A DNA stretch of 64,000 bases, from positions 660,954-724,953 of the forward strand of contig NZ_GG729934.1 in assembly GCF_000160135.1 (NCBI RefSeq). Direction: 5' to 3'. A program made the position numbers and the translations under genes. Under the pieces are notes generated by a model that was not told the origin of the DNA, did not search any database, and worked only from the letters and a program-made list of their open reading frames with translations. Within the stretch, counting starts at the first letter, position 1. Each line of letters begins with the position of its first letter. Source of the DNA: Oribacterium sp. oral taxon 078 str. F0262 (GTDB lineage: Bacteria > Bacillota > Clostridia > Lachnospirales > Lachnospiraceae). Positions 3,898 through 25,580 of the stretch are shown here, piece by piece.

Positions 3898-4014
3898 ATG
3901 AGTTTATACGCAATCGGTGATCTTTATCTGCATTATCAGTCTGTACTCAAAGCGCCCGGGCAGCTGCATGATCGAGTATGGAAAAATCATGAGGAAAGAT
4001 TCAAGAAGGATTGA
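3898..4014 (+). pseudogene. Metallophosphoesterase, N-terminal stub (38 aa)
   Basis: The peptide begins MSLYAIGDLYLHYQSVLKAP. This matches the start of calcineurin-like phosphoesterases, which carry GDLHLH; here the first metal-binding histidine is replaced by tyrosine. A GGAG precedes the ATG by eight bases. The frame ends after 38 residues where the family normally continues for over 200. This is the stub of a deleted gene. Its stop codon overlaps the -35 box of the tetR promoter, so the deletion joined old and new regulatory DNA. Confidence 0.55.
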
Positions 4015-4069
4015 CGGGAATCTTTTATCATGCTAATATACCAGTGGTACATACCACTGGTATATTAGC
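4011..4069 (+). promoter_or_regulatory. tetR operon promoter with perfect 38-bp palindromic operator
   Basis: The -35 box TTGACG (4011-4016) and -10 box TAATAT (4034-4039) are separated by 17 bases. A perfect inverted repeat with 18-bp arms (4032-4049 and 4052-4069; left arm GCTAATATACCAGTGGTA) covers the -10 box and the likely start of transcription. A dyad at this place is the expected site for the TetR-family protein encoded next, so autorepression is inferred. Confidence 0.85.
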
Positions 4070-4084
4070 GCTGGAGGACTTTTT

Positions 4085-4699: not shown

Positions 4700-4715
4700 G
4701 CTGTCAAAGCAACAA

Positions 4716-10292: not shown

Positions 10293-10452
10293 TGAAAGCT
10301 CTTTCCTTTTTGGGAAAAGGTTTTGCTGCTGTCGGATGATAAAGCAAGTGAATATGACACGGCCGGGATTCGGGCAGGCTCTTTGACAAACAGAAAAAAC
10401 AAGTTTAAAATAAAGTCTAATAGCATTATAAACTTAAATTGAGGTGCTGCCT

Positions 10453-11679
10453 ATGGATTATATTCATCGTTCTCTGGAAAGAAAGTTCCTGAAAATGAGC
10501 AGTGCGTTTAAGGCTGTGATGGTGACCGGAGCGAGACAGGTCGGGAAGTCTACGATGCTTAACGCCTTGGCACAGGATAGCGGTCGGGTCTGTGTCTCAA
10601 TGGATGATGCGGATATCAGGGATCTTGCGCAGAGGGACCCCAAACTCTTCTTTCAGATGTATCAGCCGCCGATCCTTATAGATGAAGTGCAGAAGGCTCC
10701 CGCCCTCTTGGAACAAATCAAATTGCTGTGTGACGAGAGTGACGAAAGAGGTCGTTTCTGGTTGACAGGCTCTCAAAGCAAAAGGCTGATGAAGCAAGCC
10801 GGAGACTCTCTCGCCGGGAGGATAGGGATCCTTAAGATGTTCAGCCTGTCGGCGAAGGAGCTTGCGGGGAAAGCGGATGATATCCCGGACGATTATTCTC
10901 TTTCGTCGTTTATAAAGAGAAGTCAAAACTATCCGGCGAATAATATTTTGGATGTATATGAGCGTATCTGGGCTGGCGGTATGCCGGACATGGTTTCCAT
11001 GGATGCGGAACTCCGGCGTGCCTACTGGAATTCCTATATTGATGCCTATTTGATGAGGGATGCGGTAGATGATAACGGGATTCATGATACAGAGGGCTTC
11101 CGCAGGTTCCTAAGAGCCAGCGCGGCCTTTTCAGGGGAGCTGCTGAACTATAACGACCTGGGCAGCGCGGCGGGAGTATCCGGCGTGACTGCGAAGGAAT
11201 GGGTCAAGGTCCTTCAGTCCATGGGGATCATCTTTCTGCTCGAACCGTTCTATAATAACGAGCTTAAGCGAATGATCAAGACGCCGAAGCTGTATTTCTG
11301 CGACACCGGTTTATGTTCCTTCCTTTCATCCTGGACCAGCCGTGATGCACTCATGAATGGTGCGGCGTCCGGTCATTATCTTGAAAACTATGTCGTCTCA
11401 GAGATGCTCAGAAATGCCTCTTATGGAGAGAAAAGCGTCAATCTGAACTTCTATCGGGACACAAATCAGAAGGAGATCGATCTGATCCTGGAGATGGATG
11501 GCAGACTGCATGCGTTTGAGATCAAGCGTGCGGCTTCTCCGGAGAGAAAAATTATCAGAACCTTTTCACTCCTTAAAAAAAGCGGGAGGGAGATCGGGCC
11601 GGGAGCTGTCATCTGTATGGCAGAGAGGCCATTCCCTGTCGATGCATCCACTTTCCTGCTTCCGGTAAATCTCCTGTAA
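10453..11679 (+). CDS. AAA ATPase with DUF4143 C-terminal domain
   Basis: The 408-residue protein has an N-terminal AAA_14 ATPase domain with Walker A GARQVGKSTM and Walker B PPILIDEVQ, followed by a winged helix and the DUF4143 domain. That domain ends in a nuclease-like fold with ENYVVSEML, FYRDTNQKEIDLIL and AFEIKRA, the E-D-x-K pattern of PD-(D/E)XK enzymes. The family is very common in gut Clostridia and has no settled role. The ATG at 10453 is preferred over GTG 10444 because GAGGTG lies in front of it. It is a single-gene unit. Confidence 0.8.
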   Translation: MDYIHRSLERKFLKMSSAFKAVMVTGARQVGKSTMLNALAQDSGRVCVSMDDADIRDLAQRDPKLFFQMYQPPILIDEVQKAPALLEQIKLLCDESDERGRFWLTGSQSKRLMKQAGDSLAGRIGILKMFSLSAKELAGKADDIPDDYSLSSFIKRSQNYPANNILDVYERIWAGGMPDMVSMDAELRRAYWNSYIDAYLMRDAVDDNGIHDTEGFRRFLRASAAFSGELLNYNDLGSAAGVSGVTAKEWVKVLQSMGIIFLLEPFYNNELKRMIKTPKLYFCDTGLCSFLSSWTSRDALMNGAASGHYLENYVVSEMLRNASYGEKSVNLNFYRDTNQKEIDLILEMDGRLHAFEIKRAASPERKIIRTFSLLKKSGREIGPGAVICMAERPFPVDASTFLLPVNLL

Positions 11680-11701
11680 CAGGAAGAAAAATTTAAAACG
11701 A

Positions 11702-12253
11702 ATGCAAAAGGTCCGCTGGGGCCATGAGAAGAATCCGGGGGCGGAGAAAAATGAGATATTGAAGAACCCGCAGTTTCCAAAGGGCCTTGAATCAGAGCTG
11801 TTCTTCGGAAAAGTCCGGATCGGCGATGTGCTTTTGGGCAGGGAATATCTGGAGAAATTCAGTTATCCGAGCTATATCAATTTCTCGGAACAGCCGGAGA
11901 TATATCCGGTCAATGTGGAGGAGAGCGGCAGCAAGCGCTTCGGTCTGGAACTGCTGGATCCGTATACCTACGCTACACCCGGAGGCAGGGAGTGGAGTAT
12001 AGGAGACCTGAAGCTAAGCTGGTATGCCGTAGACGACAGCGGCTTTGCCGGAAGCTATACCGCGGTCGGCACAGTCAGAGACGGGGTACTGTCGGAGGGA
12101 GATGGCAGCTCTCTGTATTTCTACGACAGGGAGATCAGTAAGGAAGAGATGAGCAGAGAAAACGAGGAGGGAGATCAGCAGGTGGGGATCGGAATGATCC
12201 TCGTCGGACTGCTGCTCAGTGCCTTTTTCATCTATCGCATCAAAACAAGCTGA
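11702..12253 (+). CDS. Hypothetical protein with C-terminal membrane anchor
   Basis: The 183-residue protein has a mixed, probably beta-rich part (residues 30-140), then a charged stretch and one hydrophobic helix (IGMILVGLLLSAFFIYRI) close to the C-terminus. It has no signal peptide, and the start codon lacks a clear ribosome site, so the N-terminus may be lost and the gene may be a fragment. It converges with the anti-sigma gene, with 27 bases between the stops. No family was recognised. Confidence 0.45.
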   Translation: MQKVRWGHEKNPGAEKNEILKNPQFPKGLESELFFGKVRIGDVLLGREYLEKFSYPSYINFSEQPEIYPVNVEESGSKRFGLELLDPYTYATPGGREWSIGDLKLSWYAVDDSGFAGSYTAVGTVRDGVLSEGDGSSLYFYDREISKEEMSRENEEGDQQVGIGMILVGLLLSAFFIYRIKTS

Positions 12254-12280
12254 TAAGGATAAGCTGAGTGGAATCTTCTC

Positions 12281-13495
12281 TCAGTCATCATCTGCTTCGA
12301 CCTCGTCCCGATCCCTATCGGAATCCTTCTTTTTCCCCTTTCCATCATCCTGCTCCTTATCCTTCTTGTCATCAGCATCGTCATCATTCCGCTCTGAGCC
12401 CGGGGGATGAGCCGCTTTACTCTCATTTCTATCGGCGTCATTTCGCCCCGAGCCCGTGGGATGGGCTGCTTTTCGCTCATCCCCATCGTCATCATCGTCA
12501 GAATCGTCAGAATTATTTGCCTTCCTTTCCGAGCTCTCATCTTTTGAATGATGTTCTGATTTTTTCAACTGATCTTTCTCATGATCCTCCTGTTCCTCTT
12601 TTTTCGGTTGATTTTTCTCATGATTCTCCCGATCATCATCCCTGTCCGGATCGTCGTCATTGTCATCATCACGGTCTCGCTCATCCGGATCGAGAAGAGA
12701 GTTCAGATCGCCGATGACCTCTCCGCCCTCACCCAGATAATGGGAAATATCAATGCCGGCGGTCTGACAGGAGCGGATCAGATCAGCCATGGGCATGCCT
12801 GCCAGCTCCTTGAGATCCCAGGAAGGCCGGTCCTTTAAAAGCTTCAGGATCAGGGCTGCCTTTCCGGGGGTGATCCCGTAGTGCTCGGAAATCTCGTCCA
12901 CAGTGTCATCCGGATCCACATTCTGTTCCAGGATGATCCCCTGTCCCAGGAGTGTGCTCAGCGCCTGCTCCGCATCCGAGGAGATTCTCTGTCTTAAGGC
13001 TTCTGCTCGCTTTTCATTCCTTCCGCTCACAGAAAGCAGCAGCGTGTTCTGCGTCCGGGACAGGTATCCGTGCCGGACCATCGAAGTGAGCAGCTCGCTC
13101 ATTGCCGCATCGATATCCGCATTCCTCAGATTCATCTGATCCAGAAGGATTCTTCCGTCTTCGTTATCCGCCGCCGCATCAAGGACCCGTCCCATACAGT
13201 TTACATCGACGGAGATGCTGGGATTGACATCCAGGTAGATGGTTGCGTCCGTCATATGGAAGAGCTGAAACCAGCTGATAAAAACGATGGCAAAGCACGC
13301 TGCGGCGAGAGCTGTCCATCTCATATAACGGCGGAGCGGCCTCTTCCTCTTTTGCTTTGTCCCATCCAGGAACCAGGCGTCACCGTCGGCTTTTTCCACC
13401 GGCTTTTCCCAGAGCTCTTCCGCGTATTTTGGCGTCATGGCGGATGCTGCCCGGCGGATATGGTCGTTGATCTGCCGTTCGCTCAGGCTCTTCAT
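12281..13495 (-). CDS. RsgI-family anti-sigma factor
   Basis: The 404-residue protein is a single-span membrane anti-sigma factor. The cytosolic N-terminus (residues 1-55) would hold the sigma factor, a helix at about 60-80 (ALAAACFAIVFISWF) crosses the membrane, and the outer part begins with the RsgI middle-domain motif YLDVNPSISVDVNCMGRV. The final 120 residues are low-complexity, very rich in Asp, Glu, Lys and Arg. It overlaps the sigma gene by four bases, so the two are made together. The signal sensed is unknown. Confidence 0.8.
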   Translation of the reverse strand: MKSLSERQINDHIRRAASAMTPKYAEELWEKPVEKADGDAWFLDGTKQKRKRPLRRYMRWTALAAACFAIVFISWFQLFHMTDATIYLDVNPSISVDVNCMGRVLDAAADNEDGRILLDQMNLRNADIDAAMSELLTSMVRHGYLSRTQNTLLLSVSGRNEKRAEALRQRISSDAEQALSTLLGQGIILEQNVDPDDTVDEISEHYGITPGKAALILKLLKDRPSWDLKELAGMPMADLIRSCQTAGIDISHYLGEGGEVIGDLNSLLDPDERDRDDDNDDDPDRDDDRENHEKNQPKKEEQEDHEKDQLKKSEHHSKDESSERKANNSDDSDDDDDGDERKAAHPTGSGRNDADRNESKAAHPPGSERNDDDADDKKDKEQDDGKGKKKDSDRDRDEVEADDD

Positions 13496-14067
13496 GGCAT
13501 CCCCTCCAATTCTGTGCGCAGCTTTTCAATACCGCGCTTGTACTTCGACAGTACGGTTGATAAAGGCATATTCATCAATTCGGCGATCTCTCTGTGCTTC
13601 ATGCCGCTCAGCGCGTGGAGCATGATGATCCTGCAGCTGTCCTCCGGAAGAACGGTAAATGCCTTCTCCAGCGTCATCCTGTCCTCTGCATTTTGGATCC
13701 GGTCGAAGCCCAGATCCTGCACCCTGTCCTCCTCCGGAAGCTGCGCGGTATGGGCACGCTGCCGGTACATCATCAGGCAGATATTTCTGGTGATCGTAAA
13801 GATCCAGGCCAGAGGCTTTCCCAGCGGCTGATAGAGATGTGCGGCGCTTCGGATCTTTAAAAAGGTATCCTGCATGGCGTCTTCCGAGTCACCGCGGCTT
13901 CGCAGAATACTCAGAGCATAGGCAAAGACGGGGGAGGAACATTTTTCATACAGAGCGAGAAAGGCCGCTTTGTCTCCGGAAGCAATGCGCGGGAACAGAG
14001 ACTCATCAAGCAAAATCTCAGCCTGCTGAGGCGGTGTCTCGTATACCACTGCTTCGAATATCAGCAC
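13492..14067 (-). CDS. Sigma-70 family RNA polymerase sigma factor (ECF/SigI-like)
   Basis: The protein has region 2 (about residues 30-95, with YALSILRSRGDSEDAMQDTFLKI and AWIFTITRNICLMMYRQ) and region 4 (about 125-185, with ALSGMKHREIAELMNMPLSTVLSKYKRGIEKL). The GTG at 14067 is chosen because AGAGG lies eight bases upstream; GTG 14076 would sit too close to it. It is the partner of the RsgI-like anti-sigma factor just downstream. Targets are unknown, but the DUF4956-VTC cluster lies directly behind its start. Confidence 0.8.
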   Translation of the reverse strand: MLIFEAVVYETPPQQAEILLDESLFPRIASGDKAAFLALYEKCSSPVFAYALSILRSRGDSEDAMQDTFLKIRSAAHLYQPLGKPLAWIFTITRNICLMMYRQRAHTAQLPEEDRVQDLGFDRIQNAEDRMTLEKAFTVLPEDSCRIIMLHALSGMKHREIAELMNMPLSTVLSKYKRGIEKLRTELEGMP

Positions 14068-14105
14068 GTCTGTCACCTCTTTCTTCCCTGTCAGCCCAGC
14101 TGTGA

Positions 14106-14774
14106 TTATAAGATGTTCTTCTCTCTTTCCACAAGACCCATAATCACGCTGAGGTTTCCGTTCCGGCAGCGGATCTGATCGATCAGCTCCTTTTCTTCCG
14201 ATGCTTTCCTGAGCTCGACCCGGTAGTTAAGCTCATACATGGTTCCCATGTTGGTCGTCCTGACGCGCCGGAAAAAGGCTTTCCTCGTGTAGCGCTGAAA
14301 GAGGTCATCGAAAAGTCCGGGATAGTTCAGGTCCTCCGGGATCGTGATCCTGAGCTCCCGCTGCCTGGAAATGCCCTGACCGTAGGCGCTCCGGTCCAGA
14401 ATGAGAAGCATTGCTCCCACGATAAGGGTAATGATTGCGGCCAGTGAGAGGAAGCCCATGCCCAGGGCCAATCCGACGGCCATGGAGAAGAAGAGAAATA
14501 CGATTTCCCAGGCCGAGCCGGCGGCGCTTCGGAATCGGACCAGGCCGAAGGCGCCGAGAACCGCCACGGAGGTTCCGAGGTTTCCGTTTACGATCATGAT
14601 GACTGCTGTCATTAAAAACGGCATTGCCGCGATGACCACGGCGAACCTCCCGGGTTCATCATTTGTGATATGATAGATGAGCGATATTACAAGTCCGAGA
14701 ACGAGCCCCGCTGTCAGAGCCATTGCGACGGACTGTAGCTCAAAGCTTCCCGCATGAAAGATACTGCTTAGCAT
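14106..14774 (-). CDS. DUF4956 membrane protein
   Basis: The 222-residue protein has four hydrophobic helices in residues 15-125 and a soluble C-terminal domain of about 90 residues. The motif FGLVRFRSAAGSAWEIVFLF between helices is typical of DUF4956. These proteins regularly sit beside a VTC-domain gene, as here, where the start overlaps that gene by seven bases. A role in a membrane polyphosphate or related polymer system is inferred from that pairing. Confidence 0.8.
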   Translation of the reverse strand: MLSSIFHAGSFELQSVAMALTAGLVLGLVISLIYHITNDEPGRFAVVIAAMPFLMTAVIMIVNGNLGTSVAVLGAFGLVRFRSAAGSAWEIVFLFFSMAVGLALGMGFLSLAAIITLIVGAMLLILDRSAYGQGISRQRELRITIPEDLNYPGLFDDLFQRYTRKAFFRRVRTTNMGTMYELNYRVELRKASEEKELIDQIRCRNGNLSVIMGLVEREKNIL

Positions 14775-15574
14775 ACCATTTCCCTCCTGTCTTCCCGCTC
14801 CTCATGAAGCTCCTGTCCTTCATGGAGCTCTTCATAGGAAGGATTTTTCCAATCTTTGATCCGATGCACCATCCATCTCTCCGCATTCCATTGGCCGTGC
14901 TCCTTCTTATAGATGTTTCCGTACTTGGAAAACGAAGAGGAATAGATTTTGAGCTCCGCAAGAATTTCCGAAAACCATTTCGGGGCGGCATTTTGGACCT
15001 TGCTTTCCATCAGATACCACTTATCCGGGAGAAGGGGCGTCCCGAAGTCGCCGCGCTCCAGCTCGACACTTACCCGCCTGGAACGAATCCGTGCATCAAA
15101 GGTGAGCCGAAACTCCGGATCTTCCTTCCCGTAGAGAGCAAGACGATCATAAGCAAGAAACAGCCTGGGCTTTAGCCGATATCTTCGGAGGAAGAAATCG
15201 ATTTCCCGAAGGATCTGGCATTCGGCGTCCGGACGGATGCCCAGATTCAGATAATCGTATGCCGTAGATAAGGGGAGCTCAATGCGCCGCTTGTTGACGA
15301 TGTGTTCGTACTTTTTCTTGATCTCCAGAAATACCCTGCTGTCTTTCCCGGGGACGCCGTAGCTTCTCAGTCGAAGCTTTTCCTTATAGCTCAGATGCTC
15401 TATGGACCTTCGGATCAGAAGATCATCCTCCGTGTCGTAATAAATGTTGCAGATCGTGCTGAGCCCGTACTGGTCAACGGACATCTGCCCCCGCAGCCGC
15501 TCGCGAAGCAGACGGTATACCGCTTCCGGGAGCAGGTATTTTTTCTCGTATCGATTGAAAACAAGCTGTGTCAT
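14768..15574 (-). CDS. VTC-domain protein (polyphosphate polymerase-like)
   Basis: The 268-residue protein has the VTC fold, a triphosphate-tunnel relative. Visible features are the N-terminal RYEKKYLL motif (residues 8-15), basic residues in KEKLRLRSYG, FLEIKKKY and RRVSVEL, and the acidic IMESKV-like segment MESKVQN. Yeast VTC4 polymerises phosphate from ATP; bacterial members are annotated polyphosphate polymerase but few are tested. It is the second gene of a three-gene set with the MBL-fold and DUF4956 genes. Confidence 0.8.
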   Translation of the reverse strand: MTQLVFNRYEKKYLLPEAVYRLLRERLRGQMSVDQYGLSTICNIYYDTEDDLLIRRSIEHLSYKEKLRLRSYGVPGKDSRVFLEIKKKYEHIVNKRRIELPLSTAYDYLNLGIRPDAECQILREIDFFLRRYRLKPRLFLAYDRLALYGKEDPEFRLTFDARIRSRRVSVELERGDFGTPLLPDKWYLMESKVQNAAPKWFSEILAELKIYSSSFSKYGNIYKKEHGQWNAERWMVHRIKDWKNPSYEELHEGQELHEEREDRREMVC

Positions 15575-15585
15575 AGAGATCCCTC

Positions 15586-16449
15586 CTAATGCCTGACCTT
15601 CTGATGCAGCTCAAGCTTCAGGCCGTCACTGATCAAGGTGATCTTCCCGTGCCTCGTCTCCAGCACATCCACTCCGTATTTTTTGAGGAGCTCCAGCGTC
15701 TTTTTTTCCGCGGGGTGCTTGTCCGAGGAGCAGATCACCGAATACCGCGGCTTGATAAGCTTCAGCAGATCCTCCTGCGCCGTGTTGTAGATTCCGTGGT
15801 GCGGAAACTTGATAAAGCTGCATTCCGGAAGCTGAGCTTCCGAGACCAGCTCGTTGATGCGCTCCTTCTCAATATCCCCGGTAAAGAGAAGCCGGTTGCT
15901 TCCATGAGTGACTGTCGCAAGCAGAGAAAAATTGTTGTCATACTCGATCGCTCCCTCCGGGATCTCATAGGATTTCGGAGGATCAACTCTTACCAGCGCA
16001 TCGCCGAAGGAGAAGGAAAGAGAAGTATTCACCGCCTCCGGCTCTATGGACGCGCTTTTTAGCGCCGCCATAAAATCCGTGTATTCCGTGCTGCTGCCCG
16101 GATAATCCGGTATCAGGACTCTGGCCACCGGAATATTTGCGATCAGTGTGTCGGCCCCTCCCACATGATCCTTGTCGTAATGTGTGATGATCAGGACATC
16201 GACCAGGGAAATATTCCGATTTTTCAAAAAATCCACCAGCTCCTGTCCGTCATCTTCCTCACCGGTGTCGATCACCATCGCTCTTCCGCCGGATTCCAAT
16301 ACGATAGCGTCCGCCTTCCCGACCTTCAGGAAGGTACAGCTTAAAGGAGTGAGCTTTACCCCGCTGTTACGCTGCTGAAATACGAAAAAGGACAGAGCGC
16401 CGAGAATGGCACAAACGAGCAGTACCGATATAAACTGTCTTTCTCTCAT
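15586..16449 (-). CDS. MBL-fold metallo-hydrolase (ComEC C-terminal-like), exported or anchored
   Basis: The 287-residue protein begins with a hydrophobic signal anchor (residues 6-26) and then a metallo-beta-lactamase domain. Metal ligands are visible in MVIDTGEEDD, ITHYDKDHVGG and a late FPHHG. The layout matches the stand-alone competence-type MBL proteins that resemble the outer domain of ComEC. Such proteins cut nucleic acid or phosphate esters outside the membrane. It heads the cluster with the VTC and DUF4956 genes, and the ribosome site AGGAGG lies before its ATG. Confidence 0.75.
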   Translation of the reverse strand: MRERQFISVLLVCAILGALSFFVFQQRNSGVKLTPLSCTFLKVGKADAIVLESGGRAMVIDTGEEDDGQELVDFLKNRNISLVDVLIITHYDKDHVGGADTLIANIPVARVLIPDYPGSSTEYTDFMAALKSASIEPEAVNTSLSFSFGDALVRVDPPKSYEIPEGAIEYDNNFSLLATVTHGSNRLLFTGDIEKERINELVSEAQLPECSFIKFPHHGIYNTAQEDLLKLIKPRYSVICSSDKHPAEKKTLELLKKYGVDVLETRHGKITLISDGLKLELHQKVRH

Positions 16450-16691: not shown

Positions 16692-17153
16692 ATGAAACAC
16701 AGGAGAAAGGCATTGGCGCTCCTTGCGGCACTGCTGCCCCTCAGCCTTGCAGCCTGCGGAAACGGGAATTCTTCCGCGGATACAAAGAGCGCGAAGGAAG
16801 AGGCTTCCTATGAGAGCAGCTCCACTGATGCTTCAAACGGGAACGAGGGCGGCAGCTCCGCTGACATGAAGGGAATTTTCCAAAAGCTCAGCGGTGCGGT
16901 CAAGGTCGGAAGCGATTCCAGTCTAAAGCTGGAACTGACGAATGATCCCAGCCTTACGGGCAGTATTGACGGAAGCATTAAAAACGTAACGGGCGAGACC
17001 GTTTCCACTGATATCGGAACAGTCAGCGTGACCTTGGACAGCGGCGGCAGCCGGACTCTTGGCGCAGACAGTTATGTGACGGAATTCAGCGGAAGCGCAG
17101 CAAACGTTATCAGCAGCGGCCATGCTTTTTGTACGTCAACGGCATGGCGCTGA
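16692..17153 (+). CDS. Lipoprotein with DUF4353-like tail, probably frameshifted near the 3' end
   Basis: The start at 16692 gives a lipoprotein signal peptide with lipobox LSLAAC (cysteine at about 22), a Ser/Asp-rich linker and a beta-rich C-terminal part. The segment TLGADSYVTEFSGSAANVISSGHAF resembles the last strands of carbohydrate-binding DUF4353 proteins. After a T5 run (17126-17130) the frame turns to an unlikely ending. A one-base shift there restores LYVNGMALTGMN and a stop at 17165-17167. The gene is also far shorter than full-length family members. Confidence 0.55.
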   Translation: MKHRRKALALLAALLPLSLAACGNGNSSADTKSAKEEASYESSSTDASNGNEGGSSADMKGIFQKLSGAVKVGSDSSLKLELTNDPSLTGSIDGSIKNVTGETVSTDIGTVSVTLDSGGSRTLGADSYVTEFSGSAANVISSGHAFCTSTAWR

Positions 17154-17215
17154 CGGGGATGAACTGAGAGGGCATAGCGCGATGAAAAAAACGACAGTAC
17201 CTCTTCTGACACTGA

Positions 17216-17371
17216 GTCCCGGCGCCCGGCTTTGATGTTATGGACTATGGTCAGGAGGACTACGAGTTTGGAAGCGCGACGGCGGATGCCAGACACTGGG
17301 ATCCGTATCTGCCCAAGCTATTTGAGAAATACAAGGATGTTCTGTCGCCTCTTTTTCAATCGGGGAAATAA
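17216..17371 (+). pseudogene. C-terminal remnant of an unidentified protein
   Basis: This open frame without a start codon encodes GFDVMDYGQEDYEFG through SPLFQSGK, with normal codon use and a helical amphipathic end. It looks like the tail of a deleted protein. It lies 23 bases before the DUF364 gene, so the lost gene was probably its operon partner. Confidence 0.35.
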
Positions 17372-17394
17372 AGCGCACAGGGGAGAGAGATAAT

Positions 17395-18231
17395 ATGAAA
17401 AAACTTTCTATCTTAAGGGAATCCGTATCTAAACTGGAAGACAATCTGAAGCTGGAGGAAATCACAGTGGAGAGGGCTGTCTTCGGTCTGTTTTTCTCCG
17501 GGGTGAAGCTGTCTACGGGACAGGGGGGGCTTTGCTTTACACCGGTGAAGGAGATTCCTGAAGCGGTCTGCTGCCCGAGCTCCGCGAAAGCGATGCCGCT
17601 TTCGGGGCGGCTCCGGGGACGGCCCGTCCGGGCGTATCTTGAGGATATTTTCTGCGAAAACATCCTCCGCCGTACTCTGGGGATCGCCGCCCTGAATGCT
17701 TTGAGCACGGCAGTGTGGGAGAAGTCCCCGCCCAAAGACTATGAGATTTTAATGGGGAGGGATGCCTTCGACGAGTTGGATCTCAGCCGCTATCCTAAGA
17801 CCGTGCTGGTCGGCGCGCTGGTGCCTATGCTGAAAAGACTCCTCGCTTCTTCCTCGGATTTCCGCATTATGGAGCAGGATCCCAGGACCTTAAAGGAGAG
17901 GGAGCTTCCCTATTATCTTCCGCCGGAGCGGGCAGCAGAGTGCGTGCCGGATGCGGACCTACTGGTCATCACCGGTGTGACGATCTTAAACGATACCCTG
18001 CCGGGACTTTTGGAAATGGCAAAGCCGGGGGCGGAGATCCTGCTCGTCGGCCCCACGGCAGGCATGCTCCCGGATGCTCTTTTCTCCCGCGGCGTCACCA
18101 TGCTCGGCGGGATTTCCGTGACAAAGCCGGATGAGCTTTTAGATATCATCAGCGAGGGGGGATCGGGCTATCACTTCTTCGGGAAATCCGCGGAGAGGAC
18201 CCTGATCCGGAAGAGGCAAAGATCGAGATAA
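17395..18231 (+). CDS. DUF364-domain protein (putative heavy-metal chelation)
   Basis: The 278-residue protein has an N-terminal DUF4213-type domain (residues 1-95) and the C-terminal Rossmann-like DUF364 domain. In the second part LLVITGVTILNDTLPGLLEMAKPGAEILLVGPTAGMLPD is characteristic. These proteins are often found with metal or molybdenum uptake genes and may bind metal ions or a cofactor, but no reaction is proven. Here the expected transporter neighbours are missing. Confidence 0.75.
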   Translation: MKKLSILRESVSKLEDNLKLEEITVERAVFGLFFSGVKLSTGQGGLCFTPVKEIPEAVCCPSSAKAMPLSGRLRGRPVRAYLEDIFCENILRRTLGIAALNALSTAVWEKSPPKDYEILMGRDAFDELDLSRYPKTVLVGALVPMLKRLLASSSDFRIMEQDPRTLKERELPYYLPPERAAECVPDADLLVITGVTILNDTLPGLLEMAKPGAEILLVGPTAGMLPDALFSRGVTMLGGISVTKPDELLDIISEGGSGYHFFGKSAERTLIRKRQRSR

Positions 18232-18284
18232 AGACTTTAAAATTTGCGTTTTTTTAAAATATAGCCATATAAATAGCCTGTAAT

Positions 18285-18334
18285 CTGAGAAAACGCAGTT
18301 TATACTTGCGTTTACTCAGACTCCGGGCTATAAT
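18285..18334 (+). promoter_or_regulatory. Promoter inside an inverted repeat, upstream of the OLD-like ATPase
   Basis: The -35 box TTGCGT (18306-18311) and -10 box TATAAT (18329-18334) have a 17-base spacer. An inverted repeat CTGAGAAAACGCA / TGCGTTTACTCAG (18285-18297 and 18307-18319, one mismatch) overlaps the -35 region, so a repressor site is likely. A purine-only stretch follows at 18338-18372. The promoter probably drives the defence-type genes starting at 18498. Confidence 0.6.
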
Positions 18335-18497
18335 CATAAAAGAAAGAAAGAAAAAAGAGGAAAGAAAGAGGCTTGTCAGAACGCTGCTTTGAACAGGAGA
18401 AGTTAAATTCGGTTCTGAAAAGATTTGACGAACGACGAACAACGACGGATGCGGATATCAGTACTTTAAGAAAGGAGAAATCGAGCTCGTCCCCTCG

Positions 18498-19796
18498 ATG
18501 ATGTGCCTTATGCGAATCAGAGCGCTGGCTTTGGATGGATATAAAAATCTTTCAAGATTAAAAATCAGATTGGATGATATTACGGCGCTTGTAGCGTTGA
18601 ATAATTTTGGAAAATCAAATATTCTCTCGGGAATCGATTTTGGGATCTCCTTTTTAAAAGCCGGGAATGAGGAAAAAGCCTTGATGATGGCGGATTCCGA
18701 TCTGATTCCCAGGAATGTCAACATGGTCGGAAGAAATTTCAATTATGCGATGGAACTCTCCATGGAGCTTGAGGGGCAGGAGTATATCATCCAGTATGGC
18801 TATCAGTTTGCCTGGAAGAGTTCCGAGAAAATGGAGCCGGAAATCCTTTCGGAGTATCTAAAGGTAAAGCTAAATGAGAGAGGGCAGAAATTCAGTCAGC
18901 TGATCAGCAGAAATAGGCAGGACGCCAAGTATAAGGCATCTGAGGCAGGGAGGTGCTCTTCCGGGATTTTGGTGGAGAAGAGGGAACTGGTACTTAATAA
19001 ACTGCGCGCATATGATAGCCTGTATTATGCAGAGCTTATAAAAGAGCTTGGCGGAATTCGTATATACATGGAAAACAACCTCGATGTAAAGAGCTTCTAT
19101 CAGCCGGATCCGATTATACGGAAAGGACTTGAGAATGAAATGCTCAATGCGGAGAATCTTCCGCGGATCATATTTAAGCTGAAGACAGAGAATGAGCGAA
19201 ACTATGAGCTTTTGATAAATGTGTACAAGCAGCTTTTTCCTGCCATTGAGGATATCATTGTAAGGCAGTATCAGCTTGGAGAGCACACGGAGGGGCGTCT
19301 CCCGGAGGATTCGCCTTTTATCCTTGCGAACCGGTTTTATGTTCTCTATGTAAAAGACAGGAATCTTGTTGCGCCGATTGACTTTCAGATGATGTCGGAC
19401 GGGGCAAAGCGAGTCTTTATGATCCTTACCAAGATTATTATTTCAAGGGTCAGCAATATTGCATTGATTGCGATTGAGGAGCCGGAGAATTCCGTGCATC
19501 CGGGCTTATTTAAGGCGTATATCAGTATCATCCATCAGCTTCTTGATGACTGCAAGGTGATTATCACCAGTCATTCACCATATATTGTGAGTTACCTCAA
19601 TCCGGCCTGGATTCGCGTGGGACATAGTGATGATTCGGGTGTGGCGGAATTTTTCTGTTTGAAAAAGAATGCGCAAAAACGGCTTGAGAGAGAGGCGAAA
19701 GAGTACAATAGTTCACTGGGAGATTATCTTTTCTCTCTTCTTTCCGACCCGGATGACAGCATTTTAGAGTATCTGGAGGATGATCCGGATGAATAA
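18498..19796 (+). CDS. OLD-like AAA-family ATPase (SMC/ABC-type)
   Basis: The 432-residue protein resembles the ATPase half of OLD-family or Gabija-like systems. The N-terminus carries a P-loop in a relaxed form, ALVALNNFGKSN (about residues 30-41), and the C-terminus has MMSDGAKRVFMILTKII (signature-like), IEEPENSVHPGL (Walker B) and the ITSHSPY switch. The next frame overlaps as ATGAATAA and starts like a TOPRIM nuclease, the normal partner, but is cut short. The start has no close ribosome site; MRIRALALDG at 18510 is an alternative. Confidence 0.75.
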   Translation: MMCLMRIRALALDGYKNLSRLKIRLDDITALVALNNFGKSNILSGIDFGISFLKAGNEEKALMMADSDLIPRNVNMVGRNFNYAMELSMELEGQEYIIQYGYQFAWKSSEKMEPEILSEYLKVKLNERGQKFSQLISRNRQDAKYKASEAGRCSSGILVEKRELVLNKLRAYDSLYYAELIKELGGIRIYMENNLDVKSFYQPDPIIRKGLENEMLNAENLPRIIFKLKTENERNYELLINVYKQLFPAIEDIIVRQYQLGEHTEGRLPEDSPFILANRFYVLYVKDRNLVAPIDFQMMSDGAKRVFMILTKIIISRVSNIALIAIEEPENSVHPGLFKAYISIIHQLLDDCKVIITSHSPYIVSYLNPAWIRVGHSDDSGVAEFFCLKKNAQKRLEREAKEYNSSLGDYLFSLLSDPDDSILEYLEDDPDE

Positions 19797-19899
19797 ATGT
19801 CTTGTGATCTTTGTGGAGGGGGATACGGAGCTTGTATTCTATAAGTGGATTGTGGCGCATGCCAGAGGGAAGCTTGACCAGAACAATGATTCCGATTGA
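19789..19899 (+). pseudogene. TOPRIM-domain nuclease, N-terminal stub
   Basis: The 36-residue frame begins MNKCLVIFVEGDTELVFYKWIV. The hydrophobic strand followed by VEGDTE is the first acidic motif of TOPRIM nucleases that pair with OLD-like ATPases. After about 24 residues the sequence changes and a stop follows. The break coincides with the start of the PglX-like tail in another frame, so one deletion destroyed both genes. Confidence 0.65.
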
Positions 19900-19963
19900 T
19901 CTGGACGACGGCGTGAAGGTGAATTATGCCAAGTTTGCGGACGTGCTGGCGAAGATTAAGTAA
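19859..19963 (+). pseudogene. BREX PglX-type methyltransferase, C-terminal tail
   Basis: This frame ends with MIPIDLDDGVKVNYAKF and then ADVLAKIK and a stop. The D-DGVKVNY element close to the terminus is what I know from the tails of PglX-like adenine methylases of BREX systems. All catalytic motifs are gone. The identification rests on a short peptide, but the PglZ-like stub at 22788 supports it. Confidence 0.5.
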
Positions 19964-19981
19964 GTAGAAAGGAGTTCCTTT

Positions 19982-20446
19982 GTGGATGACGAGATCCATA
20001 TGAGCATTTCCATTCCAACAGATGATGATGGGTATGCTCTCTTAAAGTGTGAATATTGTGGCTCATTTTTCAAGGGAACACCAGCTGACTTGCAAGATGA
20101 TGGAGTGCTGAACATTTTTTGCCCAAGCTGTGGGCTGATCAGCGACAGCTATGTAACAGATGATGTTCTGGAACTTGCTATTAACATGACAACAAATCTT
20201 GTTAATGACATGATTTATGATGCGTTCAAAGATTTGGAGCGCCATAACAGAAAGAATAGCATAATTAAGTTCAAGGCAGGAAAAAAACCGCATCATGAGG
20301 CCGAAGACCCCATTCGTTCAGGTATAGAGGCGTTGGAAATATGTACTTTCCCTTGTTGTAAACGTACGGCAAAAATAAAGCCATTGCTGAAGATGACTGG
20401 TGCATACTGTCCTTTTTGTGGGGTGAAAAATTATGAAATTGAATAA
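19982..20446 (+). CDS. Double zinc-ribbon protein of unknown function
   Basis: This 154-residue soluble protein has two zinc-ribbon halves. The first is CEYCG with CPSCG 20 residues later (residues about 24-50). The second lies at the C-terminus, CTFPCCKRT with CPFCG about 20 residues later. Between them is a helical, charged stretch. The GTG start has GAAAGGAG in front. It overlaps the next gene by 14 bases, so the two are translated together. It is intact, lies between two BREX remnants and has no family I can name. Confidence 0.65.
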   Translation: MDDEIHMSISIPTDDDGYALLKCEYCGSFFKGTPADLQDDGVLNIFCPSCGLISDSYVTDDVLELAINMTTNLVNDMIYDAFKDLERHNRKNSIIKFKAGKKPHHEAEDPIRSGIEALEICTFPCCKRTAKIKPLLKMTGAYCPFCGVKNYEIE

Positions 20447-21221
20447 AAAAGAGCTTAGAAAATTGCAATATGATTTTAACAGTATCTGCAATCGACTCCT
20501 TCAAGCTGATTATCAAGATTACCCGGAGGTACTGGGGAAGTTCCTTAAGTTTCTAAATAACGCACCAATTATTTTGGACTATATCAAGGATTGCGGAGTC
20601 TGTGACTGGGTCATGGAAGAAACTATTCAGAGTGTTCAAATGGCTTACGGGCGGAAAATATTCGGGACCGGTGAAACGGACGAGGAGGAAGTACGCAATG
20701 TTTATGCCGTGTTGAGCTATTTGGTTGAGACAAATAACTCAATTTACCACGGAGTGGCTATGGGATATTCTTCTTCCGGCAAATATCAAGACAAGATAAA
20801 GGGATTCAATGAGCGTTTTGTCATGATTCTGATTCGTCACATTGAGCGATATTTGACAAAGGTAGGAATTGATATGGGGATTGATGACAGAGTGATTTAT
20901 AACGTAACAGTAGATAATGGACAGGCAATTATTGCGGCTGATAATGCAACAGTTACAGCAACGAATAATGTGAGCGTAGATCGTGATGAATTGAAACGGT
21001 TGATTACGGATATTCAGTCAACTGCGCAAAATTTTTGTGAAGAAGATAAGCAGACTGTATCTGAGTGTATCGAGGTTATCAAGAATGAAGCAGTTGAAAA
21101 TAAACCTAAAAAAGGAATGCTGAAGACAGCATTATCAACTTTGACGGCATTAAAGGGTACTGCTGAATTTGTGGCAGCAGTGATGGCGTTGATTCAGTTC
21201 GTCGAACCACTTATTCATTAG
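20433..21221 (+). CDS. Unknown 262-residue protein with a DNxT-rich linker and C-terminal helical domain
   Basis: The first 150 residues are helical and soluble, with no known domain. Residues about 150-185 hold short polar repeats (VDNGQAIIAADNATVTATNNVSV). The tail, residues 186-262, has DELKRLITDIQ, EEDKQTVSECIEVIKNE, a KPKKGMLKTAL turn and a hydrophobic helix AEFVAAVMALIQF. This repeat-plus-tail unit recurs in proteins linked to AbiTii and other bacterial defence genes. The tail may mediate oligomerisation or membrane contact. Its partner is the zinc-ribbon protein upstream. Function unknown. Confidence 0.65.
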   Translation: MKLNKKELRKLQYDFNSICNRLLQADYQDYPEVLGKFLKFLNNAPIILDYIKDCGVCDWVMEETIQSVQMAYGRKIFGTGETDEEEVRNVYAVLSYLVETNNSIYHGVAMGYSSSGKYQDKIKGFNERFVMILIRHIERYLTKVGIDMGIDDRVIYNVTVDNGQAIIAADNATVTATNNVSVDRDELKRLITDIQSTAQNFCEEDKQTVSECIEVIKNEAVENKPKKGMLKTALSTLTALKGTAEFVAAVMALIQFVEPLIH

Positions 21222-21284
21222 GACACATTGTTCCCAAATTGTCCGAAAGGATGAGCGAAAGGAAATGGAGAGCGAGGTGTCAGT

Positions 21285-22781
21285 ATGACCATGGAAGAAA
21301 TACTTGGAGGAGAATCTAAGAACGTGGAGTTCAAGGAAAACCTGCCGGAGAAAAGCATCAAATATATGAAGTCTGTGGTTGCCTTTGCAAACGGAACCGG
21401 CGGAAAAATCATCTTTGGAGTTGCCGATAAAACCAGAGAAGTGGTTGGTTTTGACAAGGAAGATGTGTTCAGAAAAATAGATGCCATCGCCAATGCGGTA
21501 TCTGACAGCTGTGAACCGGCCATTATTCCGGATATTACGGCACAGACGATTGCTGGTAAGACGGTGATCGTTGTGGAGGTTCCCGAAGGCAGACAGCGCC
21601 CGTATTATATCAAAGCCCTTGGCAGAGAAGGTGGCGTATATGTCCGTATTGCGGGCACTACTCGCCTTGCTGACGAGTACATGATCAAGGAGCTGTTATT
21701 TGAGGGCAGTAACCGTCATTTCGATCAGGTTTTGTGTACTGGATTGACCATCACGGATGGGGAGATTGACGGCCTTTGCACGGCCATGAAAGAACAGGCT
21801 GTAAAGAATGCTCGCGGTGAGGAACATAAGGCATCCATCAAGGATGTCGGCAGACAACAGCTGCGTTCCTGGGGAATTTTGATTGAACGGGATGGAAAAG
21901 ACTATCCATCCAACGCCTTTGCTATTCTGACTGGCAACGGTGGACTTCACGTTGCTACGCAATGTGGTGTATTCAAAGGCAGAACCAAAGAAGTTTTTGT
22001 GGATCGGCGAGAATATGACGGCCCGCTGTGGGAGCAGATCGAGGAAGCGTACCAGTTTGTCCTTCGGAACATTCATCTCGGAGCAACATTTGAGGGCGTT
22101 TATCGACAGGATGTCTATGAAATTCCGCCGGATGCCATCCGTGAGCTGATTATCAATGCGATGGTACATCGCAGCTATCTGGATCACGGGATGATACAGG
22201 TTGCGATATATGATGACCGACTGGAAATCACCTCTCCCGGAAAGCTTCCGATGGGTCAGACCATAGAGCGTATGAAGAAAGGATATTCCAAAATCCGAAA
22301 TGAAGCGCTGGCTTATGCGTTTTCCTATATGAAGCTGATTGAGCACTGGGGCAGCGGCATTCCGAGAATTATCGGTAAGGTAAAGGCTGCTGGGTTGCAG
22401 GAGCCGGAGTTTATCGGCGGAGATGTGGATTTGCGCATCAATATCTATCGAACTCCAAAGGCGGCAAATAGCGCCATGAATAACGCCACAATGAACGCCA
22501 GGGAGACAGTATCCGGAACTGGAATGCCAGATAATGCCGACAAACCGCCGACAAACCGCCGACAAACCGCCGATAAAATGCCGGTAAATGAACAGGAGCA
22601 GCTGGTTTATAAGTATGTATTAGAAAATAACGGCATTACAACAGTGAAAGCAATGAAACTTCTTGACCTGAAAGAGCGCAGAACCAGAGAACTTCTGGTA
22701 AAAATGGTTAAAAACGGATGGCTGAGAAAAGAGGGTTCATCGCGGAGCACAATTTATGTACAAAGCACAGAAAGAGGGTGA
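21285..22781 (+). CDS. AlbA_2/Schlafen-type putative DNA-binding protein
   Basis: The 498-residue protein starts with the AlbA_2 (Schlafen AAA_4) domain: ESKNVEFKENLPE, VVAFANGTGGKIIFGVAD and YVRIAGTTRLAD (residues 5-130). The middle matches the helicase-like C-terminal domain HATPase_c_4, with RELIINAMVHRSY, YDDRLEITSPG and EHWGSGIPRI. The end is a winged helix. In between lies a tandem TNRRQTADKPP-like repeat at about residues 415-432. Members act in transcription or phage defence. Its position between BREX fragments points to defence. Confidence 0.8.
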   Translation: MTMEEILGGESKNVEFKENLPEKSIKYMKSVVAFANGTGGKIIFGVADKTREVVGFDKEDVFRKIDAIANAVSDSCEPAIIPDITAQTIAGKTVIVVEVPEGRQRPYYIKALGREGGVYVRIAGTTRLADEYMIKELLFEGSNRHFDQVLCTGLTITDGEIDGLCTAMKEQAVKNARGEEHKASIKDVGRQQLRSWGILIERDGKDYPSNAFAILTGNGGLHVATQCGVFKGRTKEVFVDRREYDGPLWEQIEEAYQFVLRNIHLGATFEGVYRQDVYEIPPDAIRELIINAMVHRSYLDHGMIQVAIYDDRLEITSPGKLPMGQTIERMKKGYSKIRNEALAYAFSYMKLIEHWGSGIPRIIGKVKAAGLQEPEFIGGDVDLRINIYRTPKAANSAMNNATMNARETVSGTGMPDNADKPPTNRRQTADKMPVNEQEQLVYKYVLENNGITTVKAMKLLDLKERRTRELLVKMVKNGWLRKEGSSRSTIYVQSTERG

Positions 22782-22787
22782 CGCAGC

Positions 22788-23027
22788 ATGGATGTCGAAA
22801 AGATAATACAGGATTTGAATCGGTGGTTTGCGGCTCCTCCGCCTGAGGTTTATAAGCGCCGCGTCATCTTCTGCAGCGATGAGGATAGAGAATTTGAAGA
22901 TCAGTTGGATGAGATCACGCTAGATGATGCAAAGATAGTTAAGATTACCGGATCCAACAGCTTTGCCATCAAGAAGCTGCTGTTCGTTGAATACTGCGAG
23001 CGTATGCTTCCTGGCGGTACTCTATAA
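22788..23027 (+). pseudogene. BREX PglZ, N-terminal stub
   Basis: The 79 residues begin MDVEKIIQDLNRWFAAPPP and contain RRVIFCSDEDREFEDQLDEI and KITGSNSFAIKKLL. This is the usual N-terminus of PglZ alkaline-phosphatase-fold proteins of BREX systems, where the strand normally reads VIFWYDEDREFED. The frame ends after 79 residues instead of about 800, so the phosphatase domain is gone. It follows the AlbA_2 gene by six bases, as in BREX loci that carry accessory genes between pglX and pglZ. Confidence 0.65.
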
Positions 23028-23131
23028 AATGTAAGCCATAAGTGTTATAAAAATGCTCGACTGGAACAAGGCGATCCGATCATCGCGAGTTGGATCTTCC
23101 CTGTAAGCGGAAATGCTGCTCTTCGGCCGGA

Positions 23132-23545
23132 TCACAGAATCATGAAGATCATTCCGGCAGTAATCAGGATCGCTCCGAAGATATTCGTAAAATGCAGTTT
23201 TTCCCGAAGCAGCAGAGCGGCCAGGATCAGGGTGATCACGATGCTGAACTTATCTACCGGTGCCACCTTGGAGGCTTCCCCTAATTGAAGAGCCCTGTAA
23301 TAGCAAAGCCAGGATATGCCGGTGGCAATCCCGGAAAGGATCAGAAAGAGCCAGGAGCGCCTGCCGATGTCTCCGATCCCTCTGCCTGCGCCGGTGAAGA
23401 GCACGATGCCGGAGGCAAAGATTAAGATCACCGCCGTTCGGATGGCGGTGGCGAGATTAGAGTTGACGCCCTCCACCCCGATCTTCCCCAGGATAGAAGT
23501 CGCTGCCGCAAATAGGGCAGATAAGAAGGCAAAAATCAGCCACAT
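23132..23545 (-). CDS. EamA-family membrane transporter (single domain)
   Basis: The 137-residue protein has about five hydrophobic helices and the EamA ending APVDKFSIVITLILAALLLREKLHFTNIFGAILITAGM. Single-domain members form dimers and move small metabolites or drugs. It lies alone on the minus strand between the BREX remnant and the iron transport operon, behind that operon's terminator. The substrate cannot be predicted. Confidence 0.8.
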   Translation of the reverse strand: MWLIFAFLSALFAAATSILGKIGVEGVNSNLATAIRTAVILIFASGIVLFTGAGRGIGDIGRRSWLFLILSGIATGISWLCYYRALQLGEASKVAPVDKFSIVITLILAALLLREKLHFTNIFGAILITAGMIFMIL

Positions 23546-23558
23546 ATATTTTCTCCCG

Positions 23559-23592
23559 AAAACAGGGGTCAGAACAATCCGGCCCCTGTTTT
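23559..23592 (-). terminator. Rho-independent terminator of the iron transport operon
   Basis: A perfect 10-bp inverted repeat AAAACAGGGG/CCCCTGTTTT lies 28 bases behind the stop of the binding-protein gene. Either strand ends in a T tract, so it can also work in the other direction. Confidence 0.8.
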
Positions 23593-23620
23593 TCTATGCC
23601 GGTGTGTCCCTTGTGCCTGC

Positions 23621-24718
23621 CTACTTCTGCAGGGCCTTTAAGACATCGGCAATTTTCATTTCCTCAGCCAGAAGTCCGTGTGCCCCCCAGAGACGGGCCT
23701 CCACATCATAGACATGCCCGTTTTGCACTGCGGGAATGGTTTTCCACAGGGGATCTGCCGTCATCTCCTCATAGCGCTTCTTGGCGGCGGCATCGTCCTC
23801 TGAACCAAGAGAGCCATAGCCCGCTACAAGAAAGATATAGTCCGTCTTCAGATCCGGAAGCGTCTCCAGAGAGATGGCCAGGTTGTCCGCTGTATCATAA
23901 GCCACTACCATGGGGTCCGGCTTTAATCCGAGATCGGCGTATAAAAAGGCGCTCATATCATTCTTAGAATACGGATAGAGGCGGATCTCCTTTTTCATGA
24001 CCCGGAGCATGGAGACGGTGCCGTCCACAGAGGAAAGCCTCTGCCTTGCATCCATCACCGTGTCCTGGAACTGCTGCAGTCTTTTGCTCGCGTCCTCCCC
24101 CCGTCCGAGAGCCCGCCCCAGCACCAGGAGAGAGCTTCTGCTATCCTGGAGATGCAGGGCAAAGGTGGGGGCAATCTTCGACAGCTCCTCGTAGATGGAC
24201 TTGTCGAAGGAGTCACGGATAACGATCAAATCCGGCTTATAGGACATGACCTCCTCGTAGTTTATGGTATTTGCTTCCTCATCCACCGTAATTTTTCCGA
24301 TGTTCAGGGCGGCCAGTTGCTGATGCAGGTAGAAGTCATCAAAGTCCCGGCAGGCCACCATGGACACATCCAGAGCCAGCATCAGATCCTCCACCTTGAT
24401 GGAGACAATCCTCTGGGGATTTTCCGGCATCACGGTCTCTCCATAGGCATGCTTTACCACCGTTTTACCGCTGTCGTTTTTGTATACCAGGGCATCTGCC
24501 TCCTTCTCGGCCTTTGTCACAATCTCCGAGGGATCCGCCGCGGCCGTCGTCTCCGCCGCCTGGGAGCTTTCCCCCTTGCCTTTGCTTTCCTGAGCCTCAC
24601 TGCTTTTTGCCTCAGCGGTAGAGGACGTCGTCGTATTCTGAGGAGAGGATGCGCTGCAGCCGTTCAAAAGGATAGTAAAGAGCAGGCCGCAGAGCAAGAG
24701 CAGGTTTGATTTTTTCAT
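23621..24718 (-). CDS. Iron-siderophore ABC transporter substrate-binding lipoprotein
   Basis: The 365-residue protein has a lipoprotein signal with LLNGCS (cysteine at about 21), a long Ser/Thr/Glu linker and a FecB-like periplasmic-binding fold. Typical pieces are ENPQRIVSIKVEDLMLALD and YKPDLIVIRDS, and a late sequence ending near EEMKIADVLKALQK. Being a lipoprotein on the outer face of a Gram-positive membrane, it would hand ferric siderophore or heme to the two permeases encoded upstream. It is the last gene of the operon. The exact ligand is unknown. Confidence 0.85.
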   Translation of the reverse strand: MKKSNLLLLCGLLFTILLNGCSASSPQNTTTSSTAEAKSSEAQESKGKGESSQAAETTAAADPSEIVTKAEKEADALVYKNDSGKTVVKHAYGETVMPENPQRIVSIKVEDLMLALDVSMVACRDFDDFYLHQQLAALNIGKITVDEEANTINYEEVMSYKPDLIVIRDSFDKSIYEELSKIAPTFALHLQDSRSSLLVLGRALGRGEDASKRLQQFQDTVMDARQRLSSVDGTVSMLRVMKKEIRLYPYSKNDMSAFLYADLGLKPDPMVVAYDTADNLAISLETLPDLKTDYIFLVAGYGSLGSEDDAAAKKRYEEMTADPLWKTIPAVQNGHVYDVEARLWGAHGLLAEEMKIADVLKALQK

Positions 24719-24791
24719 GATCTTCCTCCATGGATTTCTCCGCCAAAGCGGATATCATAAAACCGGATAAACCGGAATGCTGCCGAATGAA

Positions 24792-25580
24792 TCAGAGTGA
24801 GGGGATATTGTCATAGGGGATGCAGAGGGGCCTTTTGCTGCGCTGATCCACCACTACATCGGCCAGTACGCCGAATACCTGCTTCAGATTCTCCGGGGTC
24901 AGCACCTCCTCGGCCGATCCCTCACAGGTGATTTTCCCCTTTTTGATCGCCACCACATGGTCCGCGAAGCGGGCCACCTGGTTTAAGTCGTGAATTACCA
25001 TGACGATCGTCTTTTTATAGTTTTGATTCAAGTCGGACAAGAGCTTTAAAATGTCCAACTGATAGGCGATATCCAAAAAAGTGGTGGGCTCGTCCAAAAA
25101 CAGGATTTCTGTGTCCTGAGAAATACAAAGGGCAATCCATGCCCTTTGGCGCTGCCCGCCGGAGAGCTGCTCCAGGGCGCGGTCGGCAAATTCTGTCATC
25201 CCCGTCACCCTCAGGGCCCAGGCAATTTTTTCCTTATCCTGTGCATCCAGCTTCCCATAGCCCGCTTTGTAGGGAGATCTGCCGTAGGAAACCAGCTCCT
25301 CCACAGTCAGCCCCTCCGGAGATTCCGGGCTTTGGGGAAGGATGGCAATGCGCTTTGCCAGTTCTTTGGTGGACTGGGTATAGATATTTTTTCCGTCCAG
25401 AATCACCTCTCCCCTGTCCGGATGGAGGATGCGGCATAAAGCCTTTAATATCGTGGACTTCCCGGAACCATTGGCGCCGATGATTACCGTCACCCTGCCC
25501 TCGGGGATCCTCAAATTCAGATCTTCTACGATTTTGTTTTTTCCATACGAGATATCTACATTTTGGGAATAAAATTCCAT
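24792..25580 (-). CDS. Iron-siderophore ABC transporter ATPase (FecE/FepC-like)
   Basis: The 262-residue ATPase has Walker A GANGSGKST, Q-loop LPQSPESPEG, signature LSGGQRQRAWIA, Walker B ILFLDEPTTFLD and the H-loop histidine in MVIHDLNQ. These are typical for the FecE group. It starts nine bases behind the second permease gene and powers import of iron chelates. Confidence 0.88.
   Translation of the reverse strand: MEFYSQNVDISYGKNKIVEDLNLRIPEGRVTVIIGANGSGKSTILKALCRILHPDRGEVILDGKNIYTQSTKELAKRIAILPQSPESPEGLTVEELVSYGRSPYKAGYGKLDAQDKEKIAWALRVTGMTEFADRALEQLSGGQRQRAWIALCISQDTEILFLDEPTTFLDIAYQLDILKLLSDLNQNYKKTIVMVIHDLNQVARFADHVVAIKKGKITCEGSAEEVLTPENLKQVFGVLADVVVDQRSKRPLCIPYDNIPSL

Follow-up and report, generated by a model that had tools for sequence, protein, structure and literature searches.

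A type 1 BREX relic in Oribacterium with open PDC-M14 and AlbA_2 genes between transposon-edged deletions

Genes of the locus and their BREX origin

The locus described here lies in a 64 000-nucleotide stretch of DNA from Oribacterium sp. oral taxon 078 str. F0262 (the window) and consists of the two ends of a bacteriophage exclusion (BREX) operon with three complete genes between them, all on the forward strand. The 3′ tail of a type 1 pglX (19886..19963) comprises its last 25 codons and the stop codon. It is followed by PDC-M14A (19982..20446), PDC-M14B (20433..21221), a Schlafen-like AlbA_2 gene (21285..22781) and the 5′ stub of a pglZ of about 66 codons (22788..22986). Both stubs were assigned using PADLOC profiles and alignment to the BREX locus of Lachnospiraceae bacterium ACC2. 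The three genes, which the original prediction had called intact, have open frames that encode 154, 262 and 498 amino acids.

The stubs had been proposed to be PglX-like and PglZ-like, and profiles agree with both assignments. The frame drawn at 19859–19963 matched PADLOC PglX models at their C-terminal ends (E values of 1.4e-8 to 2.3e-5) and, at 3.1e-9, a model of a type IIG enzyme. The frame drawn at 22788–23027 matched positions 1–68 of profile PDLC02564 (4.6e-15) and is 73.5% identical to residues 1–68 of ACC2 PglZ. A Pfam search up to E 1 returned no family for either stub. The drawn ends include bases that are not BREX: DNA homology to ACC2 pglX begins exactly at 19886, the 27 bases before it (19859–19885) being codons of a TOPRIM gene and of an insertion sequence (IS), and pglZ homology ends at about 22986, with IS sequence from about 22982–22987 onward, so that about 41 bases of the drawn frame are IS codons.

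The ACC2 locus (L012, on the same contig as L023) reads brxA-brxB-brxC-pglX-PDC-M14A-PDC-M14B-AlbA_2-pglZ, which is the normal BREX order that had been suggested for the window, with the same three genes between pglX and pglZ. Its BREX genes were recognised by BrxA and BrxC profiles and by PglX and PglZ domains; no brxL was recognised beside its pglZ. A single gapped DNA alignment of ACC2 with the window runs from 19886 to 22500 (2615 columns, 84.8% identity), and a second one spans the start of pglZ to about 22986. With the profiles, these alignments confirm the identity of the stubs, the gene order and the cargo slot. The two loci differ in that the window has no brxA, brxB or brxC and nearly all of pglX and pglZ is gone, only a tail and a head being left, whereas ACC2 has an interrupted AlbA_2 gene. 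The window locus is what remains of a type 1 BREX operon whose core was deleted on both sides and whose cargo was kept, as predicted. An independent defence cluster that was never BREX cargo and lies between unrelated short matches would fit the shortness of the stubs and the lack of a Pfam family for either, but it is refuted by the two alignments to a BREX locus and has practically no chance of being right.

PDC-M14A, a protein with two zinc-ribbon-like cysteine clusters, matched PADLOC profile PDLC04447 over positions 1–150 of 152 (4.6e-58). PDC-M14B, encoded directly downstream and helical, matched PDLC04451 over positions 1–260 of 261 (5.6e-117). Seven cysteines of PDC-M14A are invariant in 18 sequences; in Pfam it found only weak zinc-ribbon matches. 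The two frames overlap by 14 bases in the window; in 13 tabulated loci the overlap is 14 bases in nine and 19–28 bases in four. The pair is an already catalogued PADLOC-DB candidate, with both proteins matching nearly whole profiles in tandem. The source of the PDC systems is reportedly a preprint by Payne et al. from 2024 (doi 10.1101/2024.01.29.577857). In the part of PMC12988326 relied on here, PDC systems are described as having been found by 'guilt-by-embedding'.

The 498-residue protein carries AlbA_2 and HATPase_c_4 domains (Pfam, 7.7e-26 and 3e-25), and probably a C-terminal winged helix–turn–helix, judging from a weak HTH_24 match (0.0023, below cut-off) in its homologue in L127. This SLFN_AlbA_2 architecture with a C-terminal ATPase-like domain has PDB relatives in 3lmm, 2kyy and Schlafen 8. 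Residues E10, E15 and D48 are present; they correspond to the E-x4-E ... D pattern, which we take to be the acidic residues of Schlafen RNases, and their catalytic role here is assumed. The gene is a module separate from the pair, since each occurs without the other. It stands just before pglZ without the pair in L136 and L142, and among the eight loci with the pair between pglX and pglZ it is missing from three (L024, L028 and L031), broken in two (ACC2 and L025) and open in three. The 'three-gene cargo' of the original prediction thus occupies the slot as described but comprises two separable modules. A Schlafen RNase backup effector of the AlbA_2 architecture has been reported in BREX and related systems (PMC12839542, to the extent of the portion cited), and the window gene belongs to this known class of BREX accessory. 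The architectures are alike; the window copy adjoins a dead BREX and its RNase activity is putative. The slot itself is shared with the StySA BREX, in which two accessory genes (an ATPase and DUF4435) lie between pglX and pglZ and are dispensable for methylation (PMC9009780); by the cited portion of that paper, StySA differs from the window in its gene families and in having the BREX core present.

Insertion-sequence pieces at the breakpoints and BREX elsewhere in the genome

Each of the two deletions ends in a piece of the same IS element, a feature newly recognised in this analysis. At the left breakpoint the exact last 14 bases of the element (19872..19885, +; positions 1419–1432 of a copy, 1432 bases long, that this genome carries on contig C10) directly abut the pglX tail. 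Two pieces come after the pglZ stub: a transposase-gene fragment (22982..23007, +; C10 copy positions 981–1006, 25 of 26 bases identical) and a 3′ end (23005..23068, +; C10 copy positions 1368–1432, 78.5% identity over 65 columns, E 2e-8). The left and right pieces have the same orientation. The 14-base end has no other exact match in the window, and with up to two mismatches three were found against 0.31 expected. The C10 copy, the longest, has its second reading frame interrupted; across the genome, the element and its relatives give 30 matches, mostly partial. The element encodes HTH_Tnp_1 and rve proteins, a layout that we take to be that of the IS3 family. We infer that one copy sat in pglX and another beyond the lost part of pglZ. 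The locus illustrates one route by which a BREX operon was dismantled, namely transposon-edged deletions that spared the cargo slot.

IS sequence at both joins, in a genome with so many matches to the element, could also point to distant pieces having been joined through repeats during assembly. The pieces, however, are just 14, 26 and about 65 bases long and the last is only 78% identical to the C10 copy, which should make them too short or divergent to mislead an assembler, and such an artefact is very improbable.

The BrxC profile had no match in the Oribacterium genome, of which the assembly is 97.4% complete; it rings in three of 14 control genomes. The PglX profile, matched in four of the 14 controls, found two C-terminal pieces only. 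A complete BREX elsewhere in the genome is thus unlikely, as far as profiles can tell. The frames of the pair and of the AlbA_2 gene have nevertheless stayed open in this genome, with no BrxC match and C-terminal PglX pieces only. A search with the 79-residue stub matched only itself in the genome, and the conclusion that there were no other BREX genes was dropped when full-length PglZ found a second pglZ on contig C9. There, a second BREX relic (L130, G000:C9, about 690–15947) holds a pglX C-terminus and a pglZ that is open over 840 amino acids. Its pglX is down to about 200 C-terminal residues and lies beside a Mutator-family transposase gene; no brxA, brxB or brxC match was found in the 32 kb read. 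After pglZ the C9 relic carries DrmD-like helicase, TmtA/sacsin-like and PDC-S68-like genes.

The loss of the pglX N-terminus at both loci, with no adjacent brxA, brxB or brxC match, is what would be expected if the loss of BREX had itself been favoured, owing to its cost or toxicity, with accessory genes kept for protection without that cost. Selection is not required to explain two such events in a single genome that carries transposons, and the C9 pglZ is open over 840 amino acids; this explanation is improbable.

Distribution of the PDC-M14 pair and its possible mode of action

Fifteen named loci with the pair were found. Further searches, with duplicates and L020 removed, gave 30 genomes or records; L020 was left out of this tally as it has the C-terminal module only, with no zinc-ribbon gene seen. 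Open reading frames in the compared loci were called as the longest, so that genes may be masked (in L028 an antisense frame hides brxC). The pair lies between pglX and pglZ of a BREX operon in eight of the 30 (ACC2, L024–L029 and L031), in which the core is undamaged as called, with brxC masked in L028, brxA truncated in L029 where the stretch ends and brxL unchecked. It lies between brxC and pglX in two (L019 and L129) and in gutted BREX loci in four (the window, L030, L036 and L037). Type I restriction genes or fragments accompany it in six, adjacent in L033, L034, L017, L155 and L156 and about 5 kb off in L035, and other DNA methylases lie beside it in two (L132 and L157). In the remaining eight (L013, L015, L016, L018, L158, L159, L160 and a Lysinibacillus plasmid), the stretch read showed none of these near the pair; L016 has only part of PDC-M14B, with a cytosine-methylase-like frame (assigned by eye) about 5 kb away, and a frame near the L160 pair has a PglX-like match that is weak (37 bits). 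In L160 (9187–10461) the A and B genes are arranged head to head rather than in tandem. No BREX genes were seen with the pair in 16 of the 30 places.

An even draw of the order contained PDC-M14A in five of 392 genomes, that of the window included; four of these five also have a PglZ match, which 44 of the 392 show in total. The PDC-M14B N-terminal profile matched seven of 398 genomes, again including this one, and all six others have an adjacent zinc-ribbon partner. Relatives of PDC-M14B were found in one of 72,556 plasmid records and in none of the viral contigs or phage records. From the PglZ side, 19 of 45 listed places were read with their flanks (L126–L130, L133–L145 and L019). Among 13 further loci obtained with PglZ as bait, 12 have pglX on one side of the slot and pglZ on the other, with truncation at a contig or stretch end in some; the slot holds a frame of 130 amino acids or more in six of these 12, and the pair is in none of the 13.

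That cargo relatives occur in BREX and other defence loci, as predicted, is borne out by the eight pglX–pglZ loci and the type I restriction loci. Relatives of the pair carried by a plasmid, next to type I restriction genes and in a second BREX slot support its independence. Judged by this distribution, the pair is probably autonomous. The earlier suggestion that the cargo works alone is therefore plausible for the pair, on the strength of relatives without adjacent BREX rather than of the window, but is unproven for the AlbA_2 gene.

In two relatives the usual C-terminal part of PDC-M14B is replaced. L017 (9268–10769) and L018 (4583–6093) share the first 150 or so residues of PDC-M14B and the zinc-ribbon partner, after which a TIR_2 domain follows (1.9e-10 and 9.1e-11); the profile for the shared N-terminus was run on L017. 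Both this replacement and the missing host system set the material described here apart from the PADLOC-DB entry. The TIR-bearing relatives have an S-x-x-C-x-x-E string, presumably that of active TIR NADases, and give a handle on what the uncharacterised 262-residue protein may do. In the AlphaFold model of PDC-M14B (mean pLDDT 81.7) the C-terminal part is a low-confidence hairpin with four helices, the last moderately hydrophobic. L020 (9080–9994) has a PDC-M14B-like C-terminal stretch joined to another kind of N-terminus, and no zinc-ribbon partner was seen; this stretch is possibly a mobile effector module.

The simplest reading of these architectures would be a constant sensor with an exchangeable effector in an abortive-infection module. 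PDC-M14 would then be a self-sufficient two-component system. Its sensor would consist of the double zinc-ribbon protein together with the helical N-terminus of PDC-M14B, which is constant and about 150 residues long. Its effector would be the C-terminal part of PDC-M14B, which in the window is a four-helix tail of moderate hydrophobicity and in L017 and L018 a TIR domain. Within BREX and type I restriction–modification operons the system would form a second layer that does not depend on them. The fullest form of this proposal, a modular system riding in such slots with an effector that can be swapped between a hydrophobic helical tail and a TIR NADase, and for which BREX is neither antitoxin nor required sensor, is tentative and on present evidence doubtful. 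Were it true, a genome with two core-less BREX loci and an open pair would amount to a natural experiment: provided that the module is expressed and active, survival without BREX would mean that BREX loss neither triggers nor unleashes it.

Retention of the cargo and neighbouring genes

Genes embedded in defence operons are generally taken for defences because of where they lie. A locus that has lost its BREX but still has an open pair, with relatives of that pair on a plasmid and in restriction operons, offers a cheap test of cargo autonomy. The relic and its IS-edged deletions are well supported; the explanation as a whole, in which PDC-M14 is also self-sufficient and the AlbA_2 gene is a Schlafen-type BREX backup effector, we consider on balance probable. 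A serious competitor, with somewhat less than an even chance of being correct, is that the cargo is debris that two IS-driven deletions happened to leave between them, open only because these are recent, and in need of no function.

Other gutted loci bear on this question. The window, L030, L036 and L037 came to light through the pair, and L126 and L127 through PglZ; an apparent pglZ stub in G288 proved to be a contig end and was dropped. In L030 brxA, brxB, pglX, AlbA_2 and pglZ are broken and in L036 brxC and pglX are cut with no pglZ match, yet the pair is intact in both, as it is in the window. This, with the establishment of the pair in other genomes without adjacent BREX, speaks against debris. 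In favour of debris, L127 retains an AlbA_2 gene that lacks its first 40–50 or so residues and 48 codons of pglZ (residues 1–48), with no pair, and L126 (11154–11687) has a pglX tail adjoining residues 1–96 of pglZ, with no cargo and no other BREX match; L037, too, has a broken pair beside its open AlbA_2. An HTH_21 transposase-type gene lies about 2 kb downstream in L126. Among the gutted loci that hold them, the pair is intact in three of four and AlbA_2 in two of four, which are small counts.

Substitution patterns were examined for the window and ACC2. Pairwise dN/dS values were 0.09 for the zinc-ribbon gene, 0.152 for PDC-M14B and 0.20 for AlbA_2, the ACC2 copy of which is interrupted. 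Broken genes of L030 likewise keep low values against L029 (pglX 0.10, pglZ 0.03), and rate tests cannot separate living from dead genes here. Of the columns invariant in seven other sequences, the window has changed 0 of 87 in the zinc ribbon, 5 of 110 in PDC-M14B and 4 of 28 in the stub, compared with 6 of 93, 4 of 109 and 3 of 27 (PglZ start) in ACC2. The stub differs from the pair (p = 0.016) but not from the living PglZ start of ACC2 (p = 1.0), and the L027 and L031 PglZ starts also have 4 of 28 changed. Because the living PglZ start of ACC2 looks like the stub, the difference between stub and pair is no sign of relaxation. Polarised changes (nonsynonymous, synonymous) in the window were 8, 12 for the zinc ribbon, 20, 16 for PDC-M14B and 7, 5 for the stub, and in ACC2 15, 11, 17, 14 and, for the PglZ start, 6, 8. 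L025 was excluded from the invariant-column and polarised-change sets. The deletion is too recent for substitution tests, so that cargo kept and used and cargo recently stranded are inseparable by them.

Several observations weigh against a self-sufficient, selected pair. No selection after the deletion was detectable by pairwise dN/dS, invariant columns or polarised changes: the dead pglZ stub has a dN/dS of 0.147, equal to that of PDC-M14B, and the pair changed 5 of 197 invariant columns in the window against 10 of 202 in ACC2. In L037 it is the pair that is broken and AlbA_2 that is open. Overlap of the two frames is not universal: the plasmid and G598 have them just side by side, and G834 has them head to head. 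For the proposed effector, the C-terminal KD19 maximum is just 1.64 in the window and 0.92–1.74 in nine other homologues without TIR, values at or below what we take to be the usual transmembrane cut-off, and the models of PDC-M14A and PDC-M14B gave no usable fold match in the PDB (best E 0.33 and 1.3). The sample of 30 places is non-random, having been built up from the sequence of the window itself, and no experiment on PDC-M14 was found in the literature under that name.

Upstream of the relic lies an open gene for an OLD-like ABC/AAA_15 ATPase resembling HEC-01A (18498..19796, +; Pfam AAA_15 1.1e-16, PADLOC HEC-01A 4.2e-28). The left deletion stripped this ATPase (region 18498–19871) of its TOPRIM partner, which is cut after about 27 codons (19789..19871, +; OLD-like_TOPRIM 0.0032, below the curated cut-off), so that the locus has no complete ATPase–TOPRIM pair of the HEC-01/PARIS-like kind. 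The TOPRIM start is 78.5% identical in DNA to a locus in G098 (L045) over 79 bases up to 19845. The ATPase is classed as a neighbour and not as BREX cargo because four relatives (G098, G023, G040 and G190) have no BREX match in the 15–16 kb read; an HsdM-like gene lies near the relative in G040. On the right flank is an EamA transporter gene (23132..23545, −; Pfam 5.4e-22). Rfam (window 17000–25000) and tRNA scans were empty, and a scan for promoters and terminators returned 13 and 7 sites, respectively, against shuffle means of 8.5 and 3.5.

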